From: a virus
DNA length: 21,691 nucleotides
IMG/VR virus record: IMGVR_UViG_3300003690_000168
Location: 1-21,691 of that record
Reading direction: 5' to 3' (one strand)
Of the stretch, positions 1,095 to 21,093 are shown one piece after another. How positions within the stretch are numbered: position 1 is the stretch's first letter; the number at the start of each line of letters is the position of its first letter. Both the position numbers and the translations under genes were made by a program. Under the pieces are notes generated by a model. It was not told where the DNA came from. It worked only from the letters and a program-made list of their open reading frames with translations, and searched no databases.

Positions 1095-1304
1095 TCACCA
1101 GTCGCCGAAGGTGCAGATCGGCCCGCAGCCGCGGGCCTTACAGTCATGATCTTTTAGGGCACGCCTGAAGCGCTCCTCCTCCTCGGCCCGTCTGGTGCTC
1201 GCCCATACGATAGGGGGCGCTCCCGCGTCAAGTTCCGCGCAGCGCGGACAGCCGTCGACTCGCCGCCCGAAGATCACTTGGTGCGTGTGTCTGGCGTGTG
1301 TCAT
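1095..1304 (-). CDS. Small Cys-rich putative zinc-binding protein, 69 aa
   Basis: The ATG at 1304-1302 is preferred over an in-frame GTG at 1313 because GGAG lies eight bases upstream of the ATG. The protein starts MTHARHTHQVIFGRRVDG and contains CPRC, then near the C-terminus C-x4-C-x3-C in KDHDCKARGCGPICTF. Five cysteines and several histidines in 69 residues suggest a small zinc-stabilised fold. Proteins of this general look are common in phage accessory regions, but their role is not established to my knowledge. A central RRAEEEERFRRALKDH segment should be helical. It is the first gene of the leftward arm and abuts the divergent control region. Confidence 0.65.
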   Translation of the reverse strand: MTHARHTHQVIFGRRVDGCPRCAELDAGAPPIVWASTRRAEEEERFRRALKDHDCKARGCGPICTFGDW

Positions 1305-1416
1305 GGCGTACACTCCACTTGGTGTAGATATTGTCCGCGTTCCGCGTGAAACCTCATTGACCGACTATACCACACTCGAACCCTATAATATACAATAATC
1401 GTTCGGCCCCATGGAA

Positions 1417-1600
1417 TAGGTCAGCTGCCATAGCAGGCTCGAGCGCACAAGGTCTTGTCAAACCGTTGACAGCTATAGGTCAACTGACCTAAGAGGTGAG
1501 AAGCGTTGACGCTTGGTCGTTTGACCGAAGCGTATGTGGGGTGAATGCCCTAGATTCAGACTTGGTCGAATGACCGAGAGTCGTTAGGTCTGATAACCTA
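1417..1600. promoter_or_regulatory. Array of 16-bp operator-like inverted repeats
   Basis: Five sites share the layout TNGGTC-N4-GACCNA. They are 1417-1432 (TAGGTC/GCCATA, right arm degenerate), 1476-1491 (TAGGTC/GACCTA, perfect), 1513-1528 (TTGGTC/GACCGA), 1562-1577 (TTGGTC/GACCGA) and 1585-1600 (TAGGTC/AACCTA). A lone half-site GACCGA sits at 1359-1364. Two other inverted repeats are interleaved: TGTCAA-ACCG-TTGACA at 1456-1471 and AAGCG-TTGA-CGCTT at 1501-1514. Repeated dyads with a constant 4-base spacer are what a dimeric phage repressor or activator binds. The helix-turn-helix protein encoded at 1730-2047 is the obvious candidate, by position only. I did not see the motif elsewhere in the window by eye. 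Confidence 0.65.
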
Positions 1601-1659
1601 AACCCTCGCGCGCGCAGGCAGCCGCAGGCCGGGGGGGGGAGGGGGGTATGACACTTCAT
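1489..1659 (-). CDS. Doubtful 56-aa ORF across the operator array
   Basis: A leftward ATG at 1659-1657 is preceded by AAGGAG six bases upstream, with a second AAGGAGG further out, so ribosome binding looks good. The predicted product (MKCHTPLPPPACGCLRARG...) derives its start from the G-tract and the rest from the inverted repeats. It has no recognisable domain and an atypical composition (Ser/Thr/Leu/Pro). It may be a leader ORF of a leftward transcript, or a chance frame. Confidence 0.2.
   Translation of the reverse strand: MKCHTPLPPPACGCLRARGFRLSDLTTLGHSTKSESRAFTPHTLRSNDQASTLLTS
1631..1646 (+). repeat. G-tract (G9-A-G6)
   Basis: A run of nine G, one A and six G on the plus strand is long enough to form a G-quadruplex or to stall polymerases. 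It lies between the operator array and the rightward genes. It is also a place where length errors in sequencing would be expected. Confidence 0.5.
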
Positions 1660-1697
1660 TGTAGACTCCTTATCCCTCCTTACAAAACGTGGGGGGA

Positions 1698-1727
1698 TTG
1701 ACTCACCGTCTGACCAGAGGGTAGACT
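1698..1727 (+). promoter_or_regulatory. Candidate weak rightward promoter
   Basis: TTGACT at 1698-1703 and TAGACT at 1722-1727 are 18 bases apart, a tolerable sigma70 spacing with a four-of-six -10 box. Transcription would start near 1734, inside the GTG start (1730) and almost on the ATG (1736). A transcript from here would therefore be nearly leaderless. The call is weak. Confidence 0.25.
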
Positions 1728-1729
1728 GA

Positions 1730-2047
1730 GTGACTATGACAGGGCTTTCTCCCATTGGTCGTCGTCGTGATGAGGCGTCGGCGGTGATGACGTATGCGTT
1801 GGGCGCGGATCCGGCGGGATTTGCGGCATTGTTGCAGGAGATGCGGTCGCGGGCGGGGCTGACGATTGCGGCGGTGTGTGTGAAGTTGGGGACCCGTCCG
1901 GGGACGATGTATCAGTATTTTTACAAGAAGCGTGGGGTAGGGGGGACGAGTACGATGCGGTGGTTTTTACGATATGCGGAGGCGTGTGGGTGTGAGGTGA
2001 CGGTGACGTTTCCGCAGCAGGGGCGGACGGTGCGGGTCCGTGACTGA
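1730..2047 (+). CDS. Helix-turn-helix protein (XRE/Cro-like), 105 aa
   Basis: Residues ~31-85 read as a Cro/C1-type helix-turn-helix. An amphipathic helix (FAALLQEMRSRAGL) is followed by TIAAVCVKLG and TRPGTMYQYF, where GTMYQYF takes the recognition-helix position. A further helix (TMRWFLRYAEACG) and a short strand (EVTVTF) follow. The GTG at 1730 is chosen because AGAGGG lies eight bases upstream. An in-frame ATG at 1736 is the alternative. It is the first gene of the rightward arm, directly downstream of the operator array, and overlaps the next gene by eight bases. It could regulate the divergent arms or recognise DNA for packaging. The sequence alone does not decide. The codons are strikingly G-ending, unlike the C-ending bias further right. 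Confidence 0.65.
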   Translation: MTMTGLSPIGRRRDEASAVMTYALGADPAGFAALLQEMRSRAGLTIAAVCVKLGTRPGTMYQYFYKKRGVGGTSTMRWFLRYAEACGCEVTVTFPQQGRTVRVRD

Positions 2048-2486
2048 GGCGCGTCGATTATCGTCGCGGGAGGCGGTGGACTTTGCGGCGATGGTGCTGT
2101 CGGGGGCACCTGTGGCGGAGGTCGTGCCGTATTTCTGTGCGTCGGGGGTGGCGGAGGATCTTCTACTCCAGTGCGAGGAGGCGTGGCCGATGCAGCCATC
2201 GGTCCTGGCGGCGATCGAGGCGCAGAGTGGGGGGGTGCCGTGGCACAAGCTGGGGGACGACCAGCGGCTCGATGTGTCTTTGCGGAAGCATTACAATGAG
2301 ATGGCGTATTTCTTGTGGACGACGAATTACGCGGCGTGTGACGGGGCGTCGAAGTTGAAGGCGGACACCTGCCGGTCGGCGCTGGAGGCCAAGGTGGCGG
2401 GGATGGCCGGGCAGGAGAGTCCGCTCGCACGGTTTTATCACGACCTGCTGGCGCGATTCGACACCGAGGAGGCCACGCCGCAATAA
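2040..2486 (+). CDS. terS: Probable terminase small subunit, 148 aa
   Basis: The frame begins at GTG 2040, overlapping the end of the helix-turn-helix gene, and lies immediately before the large terminase. The all-helical protein opens with a segment (LSSREAVDFAAMVLSGAPVAEVVPYF) that resembles the DNA-binding start of phage small terminases. It continues with helices rich in Trp, Ala and Leu, including an invariant-looking KLKADTCRSALEAKVAG. Small terminases recognise the packaging site and load the motor. The assignment rests on position, size and helical pattern rather than a diagnostic motif. As in its upstream neighbour, codon use favours G in the third position. Confidence 0.55.
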   Translation: MTEARRLSSREAVDFAAMVLSGAPVAEVVPYFCASGVAEDLLLQCEEAWPMQPSVLAAIEAQSGGVPWHKLGDDQRLDVSLRKHYNEMAYFLWTTNYAACDGASKLKADTCRSALEAKVAGMAGQESPLARFYHDLLARFDTEEATPQ

Positions 2487-8478: not shown

Positions 8479-9762
8479 ATGGCCAGCACCACCGATGTCA
8501 TTGAAGCCCTGAAGTACACCTACGGGGTGGATCAGGTCCTGTACCTCGTCAACCAGGAGGTCGTCTGCTGGAACATGTTCCAGAAGATGAAGAAACCCCT
8601 TGGTGGCCGCGGGCAGTTCTTGATGCCCATCATGGTGAAGAACCCTGGGGCGTGGACCGGATTGGCGGAAGGCGGGGCGCTGCCCTCCAACATCAATCCC
8701 GACACGACCGAGGCGTCGTTCAGCCTCCAGGAATTTGCGGGGCTGTACAACATGTCCTGGAAGCTCATTCAGGACGCGAGGAACTCGAAGTTTGCGTTCC
8801 AGACCGCCCTGAAGATGATGGAGGGCGGCTTCCGGCGACGTATCCTGAAGTTCATCAACGCCGACTTGATCTCGGACGGTCTCGGGAAGCTGGCGATCAT
8901 GCCTGCGGCAGACAATCAGACCACGATTACCGTGGACGCGCTCCCCAGCGTGGACCTCGGGATGACCGTGGATCTGATCGACGCCTCGGACAATGACGCC
9001 GATCTCGCCGCGTCCAGGACCGTGTCGGCTGTTGATGTGCCGAATCGGACCATTACCATCAGTGGATCCGCGCCCAGCGGCACCGCGGCCGGGGATTTCT
9101 TCTGTATCGAGAATACGACGAAATCCGGGGCGATTTACCACACCGATGGTCTGCTCGGCATCATTGATGACGCCAATCCTCCCTCGGGGAACTTTGGCAA
9201 CATCAACCGCAGTACGGCGGGGAACGAGTTCTGGGAGTCCGTCGTACTCTCGAACAGCGGCACCAACCGTGCGCTCACGGAAGACCTCCTCATGCAGCTT
9301 GAGGATTCCGTCCGTGAAAAGGGCGGCGGCAGCCTGAACGCCTACATCTCCAATCTCGCCATCATTCGGCGCTATCACGAACTCCTGCGCGAGGACACCT
9401 ACTTCGCCATGGGGTCACCGAAAGCGTTTGACGGCGGGGCCGGAGTGGGCCGCCAGGGCGGGTCGCAGCAGAAGGGGAAGGACGGGGGCGATGGTCGCAC
9501 CGTTTACCGCTTCAGCGGCAATCCGTGGCATGTCGAGCCGTACTTCGCGGCGAATACCATCATCGGGATGGACACCAAGCATTTCTACATCGGTCACGGG
9601 GAGAACGCCGTGCCTCGACCGGTGTCGGAAGTGTTCGACGGGACGCCGTTCTTCCGTCAGACCTCCAACGCGACCTTCGAGGTGGCGTGGTACTGGCAGG
9701 GCCAGTTGCTGAGCGACAACCCCGCAGCCGGCGCGAAGATCGAAGACGTCGCCGAATCGTAA
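8479..9762 (+). CDS. Major capsid protein, 427 aa
   Basis: Directly follows the scaffold with an AAGGAG ribosome site. The sequence shows the pattern expected of an HK97-fold coat protein. An N-terminal helix (DVIEALKYTYGVDQVLYLV) is followed by 'FLMPIMVKNPGAWTGLAEGGALP' and an alpha-helical spine (SWKLIQDARNSKFAFQTALKMM, then GGFRRRILKFINADLISDG). Next is a long beta-rich insertion (residues ~145-240, TTITVDALPSVDLGMTV...), and the C-terminal part ends 'VAWYWQGQLLSDNPAAG'. The closest recognisable relatives are podovirus and marine-phage coat proteins of 400-430 residues. It is the most regularly codon-biased gene of the window, as expected for an abundant product. Confidence 0.85.
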   Translation: MASTTDVIEALKYTYGVDQVLYLVNQEVVCWNMFQKMKKPLGGRGQFLMPIMVKNPGAWTGLAEGGALPSNINPDTTEASFSLQEFAGLYNMSWKLIQDARNSKFAFQTALKMMEGGFRRRILKFINADLISDGLGKLAIMPAADNQTTITVDALPSVDLGMTVDLIDASDNDADLAASRTVSAVDVPNRTITISGSAPSGTAAGDFFCIENTTKSGAIYHTDGLLGIIDDANPPSGNFGNINRSTAGNEFWESVVLSNSGTNRALTEDLLMQLEDSVREKGGGSLNAYISNLAIIRRYHELLREDTYFAMGSPKAFDGGAGVGRQGGSQQKGKDGGDGRTVYRFSGNPWHVEPYFAANTIIGMDTKHFYIGHGENAVPRPVSEVFDGTPFFRQTSNATFEVAWYWQGQLLSDNPAAGAKIEDVAES

Positions 9763-9775
9763 ACCTGAGTAGGTG

Positions 9776-9797
9776 GGGGGAGGGTCGTTCCTCCCCC
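9776..9797 (+). terminator. Hairpin after the capsid gene (attenuator or mRNA stabiliser)
   Basis: GGGGGAGG (9776-9783), a 6-base loop and CCTCCCCC (9790-9797) form a perfect, very GC-rich 8-bp stem 13 bases after the capsid stop. No U-run follows, so full intrinsic termination is unlikely. Partial attenuation or 3'-end protection of the capsid message is more plausible. Confidence 0.5.
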
Positions 9798-9822
9798 GTC
9801 ACTTCGCCAGAAAGTAGGAATC

Positions 9823-10224
9823 ATGGGAATCAAGGCCATTGCTCGCCTCGCAGCCGTGCATATTCCGTACACCATTTCGGCCGGAGAAGCCGCAGACTGT
9901 CAGATTTTCGTGGCTGATCAGGACTACCAGATCGTGGATGTGCGGGAAACGCACAGCATTGTCGGCGCAAGCAGCAGCACGCTCGATGTGGGGATCTCGG
10001 CCTCCGGGACGGCTGCCGCGAGTCTCACGACGGCGTTAAGTTCGACGTTTGCCTTGGACAGCACGGCGGATACGCCGGTCCAGGCCACCCTTACCTCGAC
10101 GGTGGCCAACCGTAAGATGGACAAGGGAGAGCAGATTTCCCTCAACTTCACCGGCACCATCTCTGCCTATGAAGGGGCGCTCCATATCGTGCTGAAGCCG
10201 ATTCGGACAAATACAAGTTATTAA
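9823..10224 (+). CDS. Hypothetical virion protein, 133 aa
   Basis: Lies right after the capsid hairpin, where phages often encode a capsid decoration or head-fibre protein. The chain is beta-rich with Ser/Thr/Ala repeats (SSSTLDVGISASGTAAASLTTALSS) and a hydrophobic final strand (ALHIVLKPIRTNTSY). It has no signal peptide or membrane segment. Position and composition suggest a small structural protein on the head surface. No family is diagnostic. The stop is followed immediately by AAGGAGG for the next gene. Confidence 0.55.
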   Translation: MGIKAIARLAAVHIPYTISAGEAADCQIFVADQDYQIVDVRETHSIVGASSSTLDVGISASGTAAASLTTALSSTFALDSTADTPVQATLTSTVANRKMDKGEQISLNFTGTISAYEGALHIVLKPIRTNTSY

Positions 10225-10232
10225 GGAGGCGC

Positions 10233-10880
10233 ATGGACGATCCTTTGCTGCCTGTGAAGTATTCGCTCGAAGAGAACGCCTTCTTCCTGAAACACCTGGG
10301 CGAGTCTCCGGTCGTGGCCCTGCGGGGGGAGTTGCCCGTGGGGGTCAATCCCGTGGCCGTGCAACGTTTCTTGGGCGATATTTACGAATTGTGCGAGCTT
10401 GAAAAGCATCGTGGGATTCCGTGGCGTGGTGTAAAGGACGTCGGAACGATCATCAGCCGATATCTCACTGAACATGCGAAGTGGCAGGAGATGTCGAAAC
10501 GTGGTGCGCCACGCTTCCCGACGATGCACGCCTGGGACGCGCGTGGGCATCCGCATCGCGGCGGGGTGTCGTCGGACGCGGGGCAAGTCTGCACCTACTT
10601 CGACGATGACGGGAATCGGCAACCGCTCTCGCTCTTCTTGCGCGATTCCGGCCCCGGTGTGTTCAAGGCTCCATGGGTGAAGTCCGCCGAGCCCATTCCA
10701 GAGAGTCTGACGGAAGACCTGGAAAAAGGCTTTCTCCAGTGCCCGGTGGACGGGTGGGCTACGAACTTCAAGCCCGAATCCAGACAGTCCTACAATATCG
10801 CGCGAGGTCGGATGTCCAAACACTGCAAGACGAGCAAGGATGATCGGGTGCGCGAGTTTGGGATTAAAGTCTTTGGCTAG
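10233..10880 (+). CDS. Hypothetical protein with Cys/His C-terminus, 215 aa
   Basis: A perfect AAGGAGG lies just before ATG 10233. The C-terminal ~45 residues (CPVDGWATNF, then MSKHCK) put Cys and His at spacings reminiscent of a zinc finger, but one expected Cys is missing, so metal binding is uncertain. The N-terminal half is helical with a QRFLGDIYELCELEKHRG segment. I recognise no family. Genes at this location in podoviruses are often head-completion factors or unknown structural proteins. The next ORF starts two bases after its stop. Confidence 0.5.
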   Translation: MDDPLLPVKYSLEENAFFLKHLGESPVVALRGELPVGVNPVAVQRFLGDIYELCELEKHRGIPWRGVKDVGTIISRYLTEHAKWQEMSKRGAPRFPTMHAWDARGHPHRGGVSSDAGQVCTYFDDDGNRQPLSLFLRDSGPGVFKAPWVKSAEPIPESLTEDLEKGFLQCPVDGWATNFKPESRQSYNIARGRMSKHCKTSKDDRVREFGIKVFG

Positions 10881-10882
10881 CG

Positions 10883-11416
10883 ATGCCTTCCCAGCATGAG
10901 AGTCAGGACTCTTTCTCGATTCCGGTGCCGAGGCAGACGCCCCCACCGGTCGAGGAGTGCCTGAATTTCTGGCATCCAAATCGGTTTGGGGTCCATCGCG
11001 CCCCGGAAGCCTTTCAACAGAAACTCCACGACGTTCACGCCGACCTCGACGTCACCTGGCATCCCATCCGTCAGCGATGGCTGGTGTGGTATCGCCGCCC
11101 ACGGATCCAGAACCCTCTCTCGCCCGGCTGGCTCCTGCTGATGGTGGTCGAAACGTCTACCCACGCGTACGTGCCGCTGGACGAACGCACCCTTGCGGCC
11201 ATCTACGAGCAGAGCGGCTTCAAGTGGGGTTCCGGGAAGCAGTACTGGGCACGGATCGAAGACGAAGCGCAGCGCGACCACGACCGGCGGGATGACACAC
11301 GTACCCAGCTTATCGAGGACATCGGGGCTGCCCAGTGGGACCACACACGGATTCAGGTGAGTGGCTGTGGGTCCTCGTCTGGGAGCAAATTCGTCAATCA
11401 TCACGCAGGGGATTAG
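10883..11416 (+). CDS. Hypothetical protein, 177 aa
   Basis: Starts two bases after the preceding stop and ends three bases before the adaptor gene, so it lies inside a tight head-to-tail gene block. The centre is Trp-rich and hydrophobic (WHPIRQRWLVWYRRP, then GWLLLMVVE), followed by a charged helix (YWARIEDEAQRDHDRRDD). The tail is Ser/Gly-rich. No signal peptide, membrane helix or catalytic motif is evident. It is probably a minor virion or connector component by context only. Confidence 0.5.
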   Translation: MPSQHESQDSFSIPVPRQTPPPVEECLNFWHPNRFGVHRAPEAFQQKLHDVHADLDVTWHPIRQRWLVWYRRPRIQNPLSPGWLLLMVVETSTHAYVPLDERTLAAIYEQSGFKWGSGKQYWARIEDEAQRDHDRRDDTRTQLIEDIGAAQWDHTRIQVSGCGSSSGSKFVNHHAGD

Positions 11417-14098: not shown

Positions 14099-15658
14099 AT
14101 GCCGTACCCCATCCAGACTCAAGTCTTTTCCGTCTTTCTCGGCACCCAGGAAGGGATTCATTCCGTCGCGTTACCCGCGATTTATTCCTCTAGCGGCAGT
14201 CGGAATCTCTGGATTGACAAACTCGGCCGCGCCAAGAAAATCCACGGCTACGCCAAGCAGAATAGCTCGGCGATCACCACAAATACCGGCGGCAGCGCCA
14301 CACGGCTCCGGTCGCTCCGTGCCTATCGTCAGACAGGGGCAAGTTTCACACGCCAGTTGATGGGCCTCTTCGATGATGGATCGAATGAGTGCGAACTCTG
14401 GTACAGCACCAACGATGGGGTCGGATGGACGTTTATTGTTGATTTCGGAGCCAGTTCAGTGGGGTCAGTTCCCGACTTCGCGCAAGTGGACAACACCCTG
14501 TTCTTTGCGAACGGTGTAGTTGCGCCGAGGTCGTGGAACGGGAGCACGCTGTCCACGGCCGGTGCCACCGGGAAGTCCCCCACGATTACCGCTGCGGTCA
14601 ATACCACGACCGGTCAGTTGAACGGCTCCCATACCTGGAAAATGGTCAGCGTGGATGCTGCGGAAGCGCGGTCTGCCGGATCGGTGACCTCGAACGTGAT
14701 TCAACTCCAGGATGAGCAGGCCGATCTCTCCTGGACGGCGGACTCGGACACCGATATCACGGGCTACGAGTTGTATCGGACCACCGGAACCGGCACGAAT
14801 TACTACTTCGTCACGTTTATCGACGGGCGCACGACCACGAGCTACACCGATAATGCGTCCGACCTCGACATTCTCGAACACCGCCTTCTCGAGGAGCACG
14901 GCGATGCCCCAGCCACCGGCAGTTACTTTTGTGAGCCACATAAACAGCGGCTCTGGTGGGGACGCACCGACACGAATCCTCGACGTGTGTTTTGGAGCGA
15001 TCCAGGACTTCCCGATCAGGTGGGCGCGTATAACTACCTGGACTTCACCGATCAAAGTTCCGTGGGGGACGTTATCACCGGGATCGTGGGAAATTTCGAG
15101 GGAATGCTGGTCGTGTTCCTTGAACGATCCATCTGGACCGTCAGCGGCACCGGCCAAATAGTCTCCGACATCATGGACTGGGTCCGCACCAAGTCCAACG
15201 CGGTGATTGGGGCCGTCTCTCACCGGGCGGTCGTGCGGGTGCCGGCCGGAGCGGTTTACACCGATGCGTCTGGAACGCAGGTGACGACGAGTCGGGTCAT
15301 GCTGGGCTATTTCACGCCCCTGGGGGACATCCGGTTGTTCGACGGGAACAACGACATCGTGATTTCCACCCCCGTGAAGGAGACGCTGAAGACGTTCCTC
15401 TACGCCCAGATTGACAAGATCCACGTCACGCACGACATTGAAAACGGGCATGTCGTCTGGTTCTGGCCTGGTCCGACCACTGCTGGCGATGATGCGGAGT
15501 GCAATCAGGCGGTGGTCTGGAACTACCGGTGGGGCGTCTGGTATGTGTGGCCAGATATGCCGATGTCGGCCTCGACCACGGTGGACACGGCCACGGACAC
15601 GCAGATCATCGGCCCAGACGTCCAAGGGTGGGTTCTGCTACAAGTTTTTCAGCGGTGA
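14099..15658 (+). CDS. Tail (nozzle-like) protein with FN3 domain, N-terminal part; frame broken
   Basis: GAGGGG precedes ATG 14099. The 519 residues before the TGA read like a podovirus tail-tube/nozzle protein. An N-terminal beta-rich region leads to a fibronectin type III-like domain at about residues 160-255 (ADLSWTADSDTDITGYELYR ... SYTDNASD). A long beta-propeller-like part then includes LWWGRTDTNPRRVFWSD and ends HVVWFWPGP ... YRWGVWYVWPDMP. Normal length would be ~670 aa. The last nine residues before the stop (VLLQVFQR) look unnatural, and the frame one base over continues the protein. This is either a programmed +1 event, a sequencing or assembly indel, or a real mutation. Confidence 0.7.
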   Translation: MPYPIQTQVFSVFLGTQEGIHSVALPAIYSSSGSRNLWIDKLGRAKKIHGYAKQNSSAITTNTGGSATRLRSLRAYRQTGASFTRQLMGLFDDGSNECELWYSTNDGVGWTFIVDFGASSVGSVPDFAQVDNTLFFANGVVAPRSWNGSTLSTAGATGKSPTITAAVNTTTGQLNGSHTWKMVSVDAAEARSAGSVTSNVIQLQDEQADLSWTADSDTDITGYELYRTTGTGTNYYFVTFIDGRTTTSYTDNASDLDILEHRLLEEHGDAPATGSYFCEPHKQRLWWGRTDTNPRRVFWSDPGLPDQVGAYNYLDFTDQSSVGDVITGIVGNFEGMLVVFLERSIWTVSGTGQIVSDIMDWVRTKSNAVIGAVSHRAVVRVPAGAVYTDASGTQVTTSRVMLGYFTPLGDIRLFDGNNDIVISTPVKETLKTFLYAQIDKIHVTHDIENGHVVWFWPGPTTAGDDAECNQAVVWNYRWGVWYVWPDMPMSASTTVDTATDTQIIGPDVQGWVLLQVFQR

Positions 15659-17341: not shown

Positions 17342-17875
17342 ATGGCCCGCTCTAACATCCCGCTGGATTTCCCGCCCCCCGACTTTGCGCGGATCCGGGA
17401 GGAATCTGGCTCGGTCACGGAACAGGCCGTCCGGTCGCTCTATTTCTCCTCCCTGGACACCAGACGCCGGCTCCAGCGGATTCAGAAGGAACTCGGCTGG
17501 TACAACATGCCGTTTGACGCCGACAACTTTACCGCCAACTCCGGGACGTGGACCGTGGCGAGCGCCGACCAGAAACTGCTGCGTTTCATTAAAGTCGGCC
17601 AGTTCATGACCATCAATCTGTTCCTCGAGGACACGAGCACCAGCAGCGGCATGGGGAACGAACTCAGGATTCAGATTCCGCGCGGCATCAAGGCGTCCTC
17701 GACGCTCTTCACCGGCCCGCTCACGATTCGGGGCTCTGTTGACACGGAGGGGTACATGACCACCGGGGGCACCGACAAGCTGTATTGCTACCGGACGGAC
17801 CATGCGGCGTGGCCGTCGAGCATCACGGATAACGTCGATATTCGGGGGGTCATCAGTTTCCAAGCGGCCCAGTGA
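17342..17875 (+). CDS. Beta-rich tail-associated protein, 177 aa
   Basis: Starts directly after the preceding stop. The second half has the pattern FTANSGTWTVASADQKLLRFIKVGQFMTINLFLEDTSTSS..., then LRIQIPRGIKA and ...VDIRGVISFQAAQ. I have seen this recur in small phage structural proteins that form a beta-sandwich and are encoded among tail and accessory genes. It may be a tail or receptor-binding accessory. No catalytic residues are apparent. The function is not established. Confidence 0.6.
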   Translation: MARSNIPLDFPPPDFARIREESGSVTEQAVRSLYFSSLDTRRRLQRIQKELGWYNMPFDADNFTANSGTWTVASADQKLLRFIKVGQFMTINLFLEDTSTSSGMGNELRIQIPRGIKASSTLFTGPLTIRGSVDTEGYMTTGGTDKLYCYRTDHAAWPSSITDNVDIRGVISFQAAQ

Positions 17876-17885
17876 TATACTCGAA

Positions 17886-18341
17886 ATGGCTGAGATTAGC
17901 TTTCGACCGTTTGATGCCGAGGATCCGTCGCGTGTGGTGGCGTGGTATCGGGGAGATCGTGAAGGCTTCAGTTCGTTCATGGGTACGGACATCCCCGATG
18001 AATTCACCTGCACGCTGTCACTGAACACGATCCTCCAGGGAAACGCCGAGGGGCGGGGTGTCTTTCGGATGGCCGACCGTGGCGACGACACCATCGGGTT
18101 CGTCGGTCTCAGCAACGTGACGCCGGATCGGAAGTATGGGCAGCCCCATTTATATGTGGCCAAGGACCATCGGCGGTATAGCTTTCGGGTGGGTCGCGCA
18201 GCCGAGGAACTGGCGAAGGAGCTGGGTCTCAGGTATTTCATGATTACAGTGGAGTACGACAATCACCGTGCGATCTCGTTCGCAAAACGTATGGGCTACG
18301 AGGAGATCCAGCGAACGTCCTTCATGAAGGAGTTGCAGTAA
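17886..18341 (+). CDS. GNAT-family N-acetyltransferase, 151 aa
   Basis: ATG 17886 gives MAEISFRPFDAEDPSRVVAWYRGD, the usual opening strand/helix of the GNAT fold. Residues ~80-145 carry the acetyl-CoA motif region: IGFVGLSNV, then LYVAKDHRRYSFRVGRAAEELAKE (R-x5-VGRAA in place of the usual Q/RxxGxG/A), then LRYFMITVEYDNHRAISFAKRMGYEEI. That is the typical end with Asn and 'A..F..k.GY'. The substrate is unknown. Phage-encoded GNATs can modify host proteins or virion components. The gene overlaps its downstream neighbour by one base (TAATG) and sits in the late, structural part, which is unusual for a host-directed enzyme. Confidence 0.8.
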   Translation: MAEISFRPFDAEDPSRVVAWYRGDREGFSSFMGTDIPDEFTCTLSLNTILQGNAEGRGVFRMADRGDDTIGFVGLSNVTPDRKYGQPHLYVAKDHRRYSFRVGRAAEELAKELGLRYFMITVEYDNHRAISFAKRMGYEEIQRTSFMKELQ

Positions 18342-18971: not shown

Positions 18972-19331
18972 ATGCCTTTCAATCCAAAGACCGGCGTCTA
19001 CGAGCCTGATTGGACCGGCACGTCCACGGACGAGTTCGACATTCCAGGCCCCATTGCGGACTGGCTGCCGCCACCCATCCCTCCTTGGTCGGCTTCGTCC
19101 GGGTATCCGAACGCTCCAGATCCGTTTGGGATACCGATCCCGACAGAACGGATTGACGCGCCACCTGATCCTTTCGTTCCGCAAGGATGGCCGCAGGATC
19201 CAAGACTCCCTGACCCTCGCCGTATGCCTTTCCCAGGGGGCGATCCCTACGACGAACCTATGCACGGAGACCCGGGATACCGAGAGACGCATGGCCGGAA
19301 GAGAAGGTCCGACGGCCCAGGAGATCTGTGA
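18972..19331 (+). CDS. Pro-rich hypothetical protein, 119 aa
   Basis: ATG 18972 opens a proline-, aspartate- and glycine-rich chain (PADWLPPPIPPW-type segments, then PDPFGIPIPTERIDAPPDPFVP) with no Cys, signal or membrane helix. It looks disordered or extended. Its last 41 bases overlap the start of the next gene in another frame. No family is recognised. It is probably a virion or linker protein by its position between structural ORFs. Confidence 0.45.
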   Translation: MPFNPKTGVYEPDWTGTSTDEFDIPGPIADWLPPPIPPWSASSGYPNAPDPFGIPIPTERIDAPPDPFVPQGWPQDPRLPDPRRMPFPGGDPYDEPMHGDPGYRETHGRKRRSDGPGDL

Positions 19332-21093
19332 AGAGGGTGACGGAGACTGGATCAACGGGGAGTGTGTAGGTGGTCTACGTACCACGGACGTTGACGAACA
19401 AGAGTGTAAAAATCAAGGAAGAGTGTGGAATGGAACACAGTGTCTACCTCTGGGGATACCTACTCCGTTTGATATGTTCCCAAGGGGAGACAATATACCA
19501 GGAGGGATGATTTCTGGAGACCTTCCACGCCCAGGACCAATGGAGGGCATGGAAGACCATTCAGTTGAATTGTCATGGCTCGGAGAATCAGGCTTCCGCG
19601 CATATATAATCGAAAATCACGGAGATGCAGGTTGGGACCCGATAAATTGGGTTCGTGATGAGGGGATGCGTGCCAGGCTTGGTCAATGGCGCGAAGAATA
19701 CAAGATTAAAGAAGCCTGTGTCGGACGCTGGGATGGCGCTAGGTGTATCTCGCCAGAGGAGGATGCCTGTCTAGCGAGGGGGGCTGCCTTCGAGTGGGAT
19801 GGCCAACAGTGTAAAGATTTGCAGCAAGAGTGTGCAAATAAAGGAAAAGTTTGGAACTCAGAGACGAATACGTGTGATGATCAAACTACTGTCATATGTA
19901 AGCCGGAAGATCAAAAGAATTGTAAGGACGGCTTCCATAACGAATGTATAAATAATCAGTGGGAATGTGTTCCCAATGTCACACGGACTCCAGAGCCTCC
20001 AGTAATTCCCGCCGATCCCAACATTCCTGCCGATCCCCGCGATCCCAACATTCCCACTGATATCTATGATGTGGGTCCAGACATCGACGACACGGGCAGG
20101 ATCCCATATGACCCGGAGAGTTTCCCGATTACACCGCCAGCATGGCAAGAGACGTTCACGCAGCCGGTCGCGGACGACCCACTCTCCCGTATGTCCAATC
20201 TTGCACTAGCACAACTGATTAAAGCAGGAGGCAAAGTCTGGAATCCCCTCAGAGAGCAGACAGGGCAGCAACTCTCGGACATCATGTCGAGCCAGGGCTA
20301 CCTGCCTCCCACGGCTGCGGAGGAGGCGCTCTCAGCGCAATTTGGAGATGTGATTGAGGCTGGTGGGCAGTTGCCGGCCACGGCGCTCGAGGCGGAAACG
20401 CAGGCGAATCTACGCGACATCATCGCGGCCGGCGGGGCGCTCCCAATCGACCAGCAGCGTCGGGCCATGGAGATTGAGACCGCTCGGTCACCGCTGGACA
20501 TCCTGCGTCAGTCGCAGCTTTCCCAGGGACGGGCATCGCTCGCGGGACGTGGACTGCTCGGACAAGGTCCCGAGATTGACTACATGCAGCGCCTTGAGCA
20601 GACGCTGGCGCCGATGTACACCCAAGCCGCGCAGGAGATTGAACTGGAAGAGCAGGCACGGTCGGATACGCGCTATCAGAACGCGATGGCGGCACTCAAC
20701 GAGCAGGCGATGCAACAGGGGTTGAGCGCGAGCCAGCGGTATCAGGAGGCGCAGCGTCTCCAGACCGAGATGGCCTTGGATCAGGCGCGTCGTCAGGATC
20801 TGAGGCTTCAGGAGGCGATCCAGCAGTCAGCGAACCTCTCGGTGCAGGAGAGTGCGAATCTCGTCAACACGATCAATGCGCTGGCCGGTATTCAGCAGAA
20901 GCGCACGGACGCTGCGATTCAGGTGCTGGACCGCAATATCGAGTGGAATACATTCCTTGCCGAATTTGGATTGAAGCGCGATCAGGCCATCGATGCAATG
21001 CAGCAGGGGCGCTTGAATATGCTTCTCCCGATGATTCAGCAATTTATGAATGTAGCCGCACAGGCCGCGCAGGGATTTCTTCCCTCTGACTAG
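19291..21093 (+). CDS. Large Cys-repeat / coiled-coil protein, probable internal virion protein, 600 aa
   Basis: ATG 19291 is preferred to upstream in-frame starts (from 19054), whose translation overlaps the preceding gene and reads as noise. Residues 1-230 hold 14 Cys in paired motifs of the type C-x(2-6)-G-x(1-3)-W-[ND]-G-x2-C. Examples are C13-C25 (GDWINGEC), C39-C51 (GRVWNGTQC), C143-C152 and C160-C174. A Pro/Asp linker (residues 230-290) follows, then a long Gln/Ala-rich helical part with no cysteine (~300-600). That part contains GRASLAGRGLLGQG and DRNIEWNTFLAEFGLKRDQAI, a block I associate with ejection/tail-lumen proteins of short-tailed phages. The Cys part is AT-rich (19861-19920 has 23 G/C of 60). 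Confidence 0.65.
   Translation: MAGREGPTAQEICEEGDGDWINGECVGGLRTTDVDEQECKNQGRVWNGTQCLPLGIPTPFDMFPRGDNIPGGMISGDLPRPGPMEGMEDHSVELSWLGESGFRAYIIENHGDAGWDPINWVRDEGMRARLGQWREEYKIKEACVGRWDGARCISPEEDACLARGAAFEWDGQQCKDLQQECANKGKVWNSETNTCDDQTTVICKPEDQKNCKDGFHNECINNQWECVPNVTRTPEPPVIPADPNIPADPRDPNIPTDIYDVGPDIDDTGRIPYDPESFPITPPAWQETFTQPVADDPLSRMSNLALAQLIKAGGKVWNPLREQTGQQLSDIMSSQGYLPPTAAEEALSAQFGDVIEAGGQLPATALEAETQANLRDIIAAGGALPIDQQRRAMEIETARSPLDILRQSQLSQGRASLAGRGLLGQGPEIDYMQRLEQTLAPMYTQAAQEIELEEQARSDTRYQNAMAALNEQAMQQGLSASQRYQEAQRLQTEMALDQARRQDLRLQEAIQQSANLSVQESANLVNTINALAGIQQKRTDAAIQVLDRNIEWNTFLAEFGLKRDQAIDAMQQGRLNMLLPMIQQFMNVAAQAAQGFLPSD

Follow-up and report, generated by a model that had tools for sequence, protein, structure and literature searches.

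Genes and elements of the gap between the divergent arms

The stretch of viral DNA analysed here, which we call the window, is 21,691 nucleotides long. It holds a gap between a leftward arm of small genes and a rightward packaging and virion arm, which encodes, in order, a 105-aa helix-turn-helix (HTH) protein, a 148-aa protein, the large terminase (TerL), the portal and the major head protein. TerL is named tentatively, from its position and because it weakly matches an annotated terminase. Three leftward small genes were scanned and gave no confident family match. The genes and elements in and around the gap, other than the array described below, are:

1095..1313, minus strand: 72-aa cysteine-rich protein, the first leftward gene; a homologue occupies the same place in G001-type relatives
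1339..1352: parS-like dyad GTTCCGCGTGAAAC, which differs from GTTYCACGTGRAAC at one position, exact copies of the latter being present in relatives
1456..1471: lone dyad TGTCAAACCGTTGACA, different in type from the array sites and of the kind that makes up the 7-copy array of relative G007
1501..1514: single dyad AAGCGTTGACGCTT, not related to the array motif
1631..1646, plus strand: conserved G-tract GGGGGGGGGAGGGGGG, which varies least among the elements in the gap
1672..1687, plus strand: conserved box ATCCCTCCTTACAAAA (family ATCCCNNCTACAA), from an alignment of 16 relatives, immediately upstream of the rightward promoter
1698..1727, plus strand: predicted rightward promoter TTGACT-N18-TAGACT, from promoter prediction and conservation
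1730..2047, plus strand: XRE/HTH_31-like protein of 105 aa; ATG 1736 is the probable start, about 8 bp past the -10
2040..2486, plus strand: conserved protein of 148 aa, judged from its position to be probably the small terminase

We searched for relatives through TerL. No good relative was found in 50,697 phage records and none in the GTDB species genomes; 65 IMG/VR loci carry one at 68-78% identity. The phage group is without a cultured close relative in the searched collections, and the relatives with an array are known as viral contigs only. Judged from dataset numbers, the relatives' records are presumably mostly marine metagenomes, and the window phage, which is uncultured, is apparently marine too.

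The window is a fragment without its left arm. Searching with the 108-aa leftward protein returned unrelated contigs only, and the missing left arm was not recovered; one unrelated phage with a relative of this protein, L140, has one exact TAGGTCATGTGACCTA at 11273-11288. In the virion arm, the protein encoded at 17802-18341 is weakly GNAT-acetyltransferase-like.

About six copies of one palindrome form the array

The first-pass annotation had described five sites of the form TNGGTC-N4-GACCNA in the gap. Three of them are exact (1476, 1513 and 1562), whereas the site at 1585 has one mismatch and that at 1417 has two; a sixth site, at 1537, was overlooked in that account. The array therefore reads:

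1417..1432: array site 1, degenerate, TAGGTCAGCTGCCATA, two mismatches to the consensus; 9.2 bits, rank 6
1476..1491: array site 2, perfect, TAGGTCAACTGACCTA, exact match; 21.3 bits, top score of the window
1513..1528: array site 3, TTGGTCGTTTGACCGA, exact match; 18.9 bits
1537..1552: array site 4, TGGGGTGAATGCCCTA; 15.0 bits, rank 4 in the window
1562..1577: array site 5, TTGGTCGAATGACCGA, exact match; 18.9 bits
1585..1600: array site 6, TAGGTCTGATAACCTA, one mismatch; 14.3 bits

The GACCGA half-site described at 1359 and the two interleaved, unrelated dyads at 1456-1471 and 1501-1514 are present as reported.

The bit scores come from a position matrix trained on 14 sites from relatives and none from the window. 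Its six top scores over the whole window fall, in order, at 1476, 1513, 1562, 1537, 1585 and 1417. In first-order Markov shuffles, 0 of 300 had two hits matching the third-best score within 200 bp. The shuffles reach a maximum of 10.4 bits on average, more than the score at 1417, so we regard this site as the weakest member of the array. Sites 3 to 6 are spaced 24, 25 and 23 bp apart, with 1537 closing the gap in the series, and the remaining spacings are irregular (59 and 37 bp).

Outside the array, no exact TNGGTC-N4-GACCNA occurs on either strand of the 21,691-base record, and a reversed control pattern has zero occurrences there. With up to two mismatches, the motif gave 21 hits in the window against 13 expected; this looser pattern is not rare, and the case for the array consequently depends on how the sites cluster and on their conservation. 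Searching de novo for groups of similar 16-bp dyads recovered the window array and one other place, a CAG-rich coding stretch of low complexity. The window array is a genuine, conserved, cis-acting element made of about six copies of one palindrome.

The place of the array is kept while its palindrome is swapped

As had been proposed, the array sits between the leftward small-gene arm and the rightward packaging and virion arm, and the array-bearing phages keep that place. In the de novo search, the best cluster of four to seven similar dyads lay in this gap in the window, G001, G004, G005, G007 and G012; G001 also shows a weak four-copy dyad cluster elsewhere in its record. The first-pass annotation had suggested a motif search over the genome and related phages as a check. 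In the window record the exact motif is confined to the array, and array-bearing relatives keep its place, but the palindrome itself differs among relatives. TAGGTCN4GACCTA variants occur in the window, the G001-type phages and G004. The gap of G007 holds seven copies of TGTCAAN4TTGACA, that of G005 five or six copies of AAACGN6CGTTT together with one window-type site and one parS, and that of G012 GCGAAAG repeats with two TGTCAA-type dyads. Dyads are spaced 18-24 bp apart for most G001 sites and 21-27 bp in G004. The sequence TTGGTCGTTTGACCTA, of array site 3, has a single occurrence in relative L006/L007.

We tested the repeat count of each locus against block shuffles. It was significant in L005, L006, L009, L014, L026 and L029, and reached p = 0.03-0.04 in the window and L071. 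Nine other loci of useful length gave no significant count, so the array is not universal. G009, which looks complete because it has a 123-bp end repeat, contains no cluster of at least four dyads anywhere in its record, despite encoding a replication initiator (see below). These phages provide a clean natural case in which the sequence of a site array changes wholesale from one close relative to another, whereas neither its position nor its neighbours change.

Two single observations concern individual sites. In L015 (487-777), about 145 bp carrying two array sites are duplicated relative to L014, which suggests that local duplication may add sites to an array. In G001 (locus L081), an isolated perfect array-type site, TAGGTCAATCGACCTA, lies at 15232-15247, in front of a left-arm gene and about 30 bp from it, and no promoter was predicted there for that downstream gene.

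Constant elements beside the array

Between the array and the HTH gene lie the G8-9AG6 tract, the ATCCCNNCTACAA box and the promoter TTGACT-N17/18-TAGACT, and all three are kept in most relatives. The promoter is predicted at +66 to +69 from the start of the G-tract in the window and several relatives, and begins about 98 bp past the last array site. In the window, no array site overlaps a predicted promoter core, and no leftward promoter is predicted over the array sites. By eye, only about 6-8 bp separate the predicted -10 from the ATG that starts the HTH gene, both in the window (1722-1738) and in many relatives (L022, L033, L036, L057, L062 and L073); on sequence grounds, so short a distance suggests a leaderless mRNA.

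The G8-9AG6 tract lies directly downstream of the array and is steadier than the dyads, being found in the window, L004, L005, L009, L011, L013-L016, L029, L063, L071, L073 and others. On the other side of the array, the parS-like dyad of the window has exact GTTYCACGTGRAAC counterparts in L004 (1774), L006 (2172), L047 (749), L048 (223), L051 (2021), L054 (647) and L059 (984). Across the phage family, the exact sequence is present in no fewer than seven different contexts, as against 0 times in 800 kb of shuffled sequence. Literature searches on poly-G origins and on phage parS sites yielded no direct match.

The HTH and 148-aa proteins do not follow the palindrome

The first-pass annotation had offered the 105-aa protein (1730-2047), or another regulator, as the binder of the dyads. 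Its gene is the next one rightward of the array, and an operator cluster upstream of the gene's own promoter would suit autoregulation. The structural model is XRE-like (mean pLDDT 71), with hits to HipB and HigA (best E 0.007); it resembles HipB, HigA and C-proteins, a dyad-binding class. However, the HTH proteins of the window, L004, L005 and L006 are 76-82% identical and have the same recognition helix, and the stretch RPGTMYQYFYKKRG is identical in the window, L005 and L006 (RPGSMYQYFYKKRG in L004), yet the phages sharing this protein carry three dyad types, and L004 is without an array. Conversely, phages that have the window's dyad encode HTH proteins only 45-53% identical to that of the window. 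Since one recognition helix accompanies three palindromes, and identity is low where the palindrome is common, binding by this protein is very unlikely, and the earlier proposal is not supported.

Other products of the neighbourhood were considered as readers of the sites. The 148-aa probable small terminase was rejected for the same dissociation, as it is conserved (63-79% identity regardless of array type) while the dyads change. Judged from these comparisons, neither it nor the HTH protein is likely to be the specific reader. In the search for a gene that tracks the motif, only that of the 72-aa cysteine-rich protein proved to be common to the window and the G001-type phages, which carry the window's dyad; its relatives in other phages (L125-L128) sit in loci without the array, and we therefore do not propose it as the binder. 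A 61-aa G001 protein, RHH-like by sequence reading, has no NCBIfam match and no relative in other loci. Among the compared loci, no candidate regulator tracked the dyad type.

Possible alternative roles: operators, partition or packaging sites and host-factor sites

One alternative is that the array consists of operators: a lineage-specific regulator from the leftward arm, other than the HTH protein, would bind the dyads cooperatively and balance the early and late arms, and regulator and operators would be exchanged together. The position of the array is consistent with this, since divergent arms flank it and a rightward promoter is predicted at 1698-1727. So are the leftward promoter-like sites that G007 and G005 have outside their arrays, and the isolated perfect G001 copy so close to a left-arm gene start. 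The small DNA-binding proteins of the left arm also vary by phage (XRE/HigA-like in G007, excisionase-like in G001). However, the window sites stand clear of the predicted promoter cores, isolated copies of the G007 motif are missing from that phage's left arm, and neither a regulator that tracks the motif nor an integrase was found. We regard this explanation as the main rival to the one favoured below, less probable but serious.

The lambda OR/OL operator clusters offer the closest comparison for such a role, with 16-17 bp dyads about 23 bp apart and divergent arms on either side. In contrast to them, the array has more copies, no overlap with a predicted promoter, no accompanying integrase and a neighbouring HTH protein unmatched to the motif. 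Tyrosine and serine recombinases (PF00589, PF00239) were not found in the window or seven relatives, most of these eight records being incomplete. The first-pass annotation had noted that phage switches use such operator clusters. A lambda-type immunity switch is not supported: no site lies over a predicted promoter core, no recombinase was found in these records, and with no integrase among them there is no sign of a lysogeny switch.

The sites could also serve partition or packaging, either as centromere-like repeats or as terminase-binding sites next to the small terminase gene, comparable to the lambda cosB R sites. A parS-like dyad lies in the same gap, and the probable small terminase lies 440-620 bp downstream of the array. 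Some extrachromosomal prophages, RedRock among them, have parS arrays (PMC7157519), which we count in favour of partition. Against partition, a phage-encoded system was sought and rejected: ten records, including the end-repeat-bearing G009, encode no ParB_N (PF02195) or ParA-type AAA_31 (PF13614) protein, the window and several others being fragments. Against packaging, both the 148-aa protein and TerL are conserved while the dyads change. We consider either role very improbable.

Finally, each phage might gather sites of a suitable host factor, which would equally apply to the mixed single dyads. Dyad types are indeed mixed within one gap: the window has its own type plus one dyad of the G007 type, and G005 has its own type plus one window-type site and one parS. 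The single exact copy in the unrelated phage L140 also fits. Arrays of five to seven copies, however, are unusual for host regulator sites, and we find this explanation improbable.

Divergent replication initiators as candidate readers of the array

The explanation we favour is that the array consists of iteron-like sites of a lambda-O/RepA-type origin, to which we give a probability of roughly 0.45. The preference derives from the divergent initiator of the relatives, the arrays in O-like genes of unrelated phages and the likeness to lambda iterons.

Relatives encode a replication initiator of PHROG 270 (E 2.7e-32, 8.2e-28 and 2.1e-25), with an N-terminal winged helix, a disordered linker and a C-terminal helical domain. 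It is present in G001 (encoded at 9751-10512), G007, G009 and others. These initiators are 26-40% identical to that of G001, as against 68-78% identity to the window's TerL for the TerL proteins. Between G007 and G009, identity is 49% over the N-terminal part and 66% over the C-terminal part. The initiator model is of low confidence (mean pLDDT 67, pTM 0.35). In a fold search with it, the initiator-like N-domain 4pql ranked first, weakly (E 0.07), and 4pt7 ranked 44th; we take both to be RepA_N-type plasmid initiators (pSK41-like RepA). RepA_N-type plasmid origins would share with our phages a winged-helix initiator domain, by a weak structural match, and repeated binding sites. They differ in that the fold match is not significant, there is no plasmid gene set, and the phage sites lie outside the initiator gene. 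A search for relatives of the G001 initiator in further phages returned G001 itself only.

Similar arrays also occur elsewhere. We scanned all IMG/VR contigs for triple GGTCN4GACC arrays and found them in 24 unrelated viral contigs, mostly as simple tandem repeats. The L111/L119 and L105 lineages have non-identical copies; these resemble the window array in the dyad core and in their spacing (22 bp) but differ in lying within O-like/replication-initiator genes.

Lambda iterons are near-perfect 19-bp inverted repeats, present in 4-6 copies and bound by O dimers (PMC5043065, PMC7466680). The array resembles the lambda origin in its several near-palindromic copies (16-19 bp for both; six in the window by the matrix, with arrays found de novo in six lineages), which are mostly about two helical turns apart, and in the DNA-binding domain at the N terminus of the relatives' initiator. 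In contrast to lambda, where the iterons lie within the O gene, the array is intergenic and about 9 kb from the G001 initiator gene, a distance that we count against iterons. No array lies inside the initiator genes of G001, G007, G009 or G010, and four distant initiator relatives have no clear dyad array in or near theirs. The irregular spacings and the lack of a strong AT-rich element in the window gap also count against iterons (AT content is at most 54% per 50 bp in the window and reaches 68% in G007), as do the isolated G001 site, which suits an operator, and G009, with its initiator but no array.

In G001, the minimum of the detrended GC skew, at 19,412, falls between the array (19,257-19,402) and the G-tract, which we count in favour of an origin. 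GC skew also switches at any divergent gene boundary, and divergent transcription alone could place the minimum there; in G009, the minimum is away from the gap (6,351).

In our model, the phage's replication initiator, a winged-helix protein of the lambda-O/RepA-like kind that would be encoded in the leftward arm, would bind each dyad as a dimer; for the window phage, its gene would lie outside the sequenced fragment. The array would then mark a replication origin in the gap between the divergent arms, and we infer both that the initiator binds the array sites and that replication starts there. Initiator and sites would evolve together, so that relatives swap the palindrome and yet conserve their structural genes and the neighbouring HTH protein. 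If the initiator is the reader, the phage family would be a ready set for studying joint specificity change of initiators and their sites.

A more elaborate version, which we think improbable, would make the whole gap a modular cassette for replication origin function. Its parts would be an array of exchangeable initiator sites, the invariant G8-9AG6 tract, which would aid opening or priming through an R-loop or G-quadruplex, and a parS-like site borrowing the host ParB, giving plasmid-like upkeep with neither an integrase nor a ParAB of the phage's own. The G-tract step would be comparable to that at the mitochondrial CSBII element. Eleven contigs (L038, L043, L054, L055, L057, L058, L061, L062, L063, L071 and L073) start close to the G-tract, 997-1139 bp ahead of TerL; either assembly broke off at the tract or the genome physically ends there.
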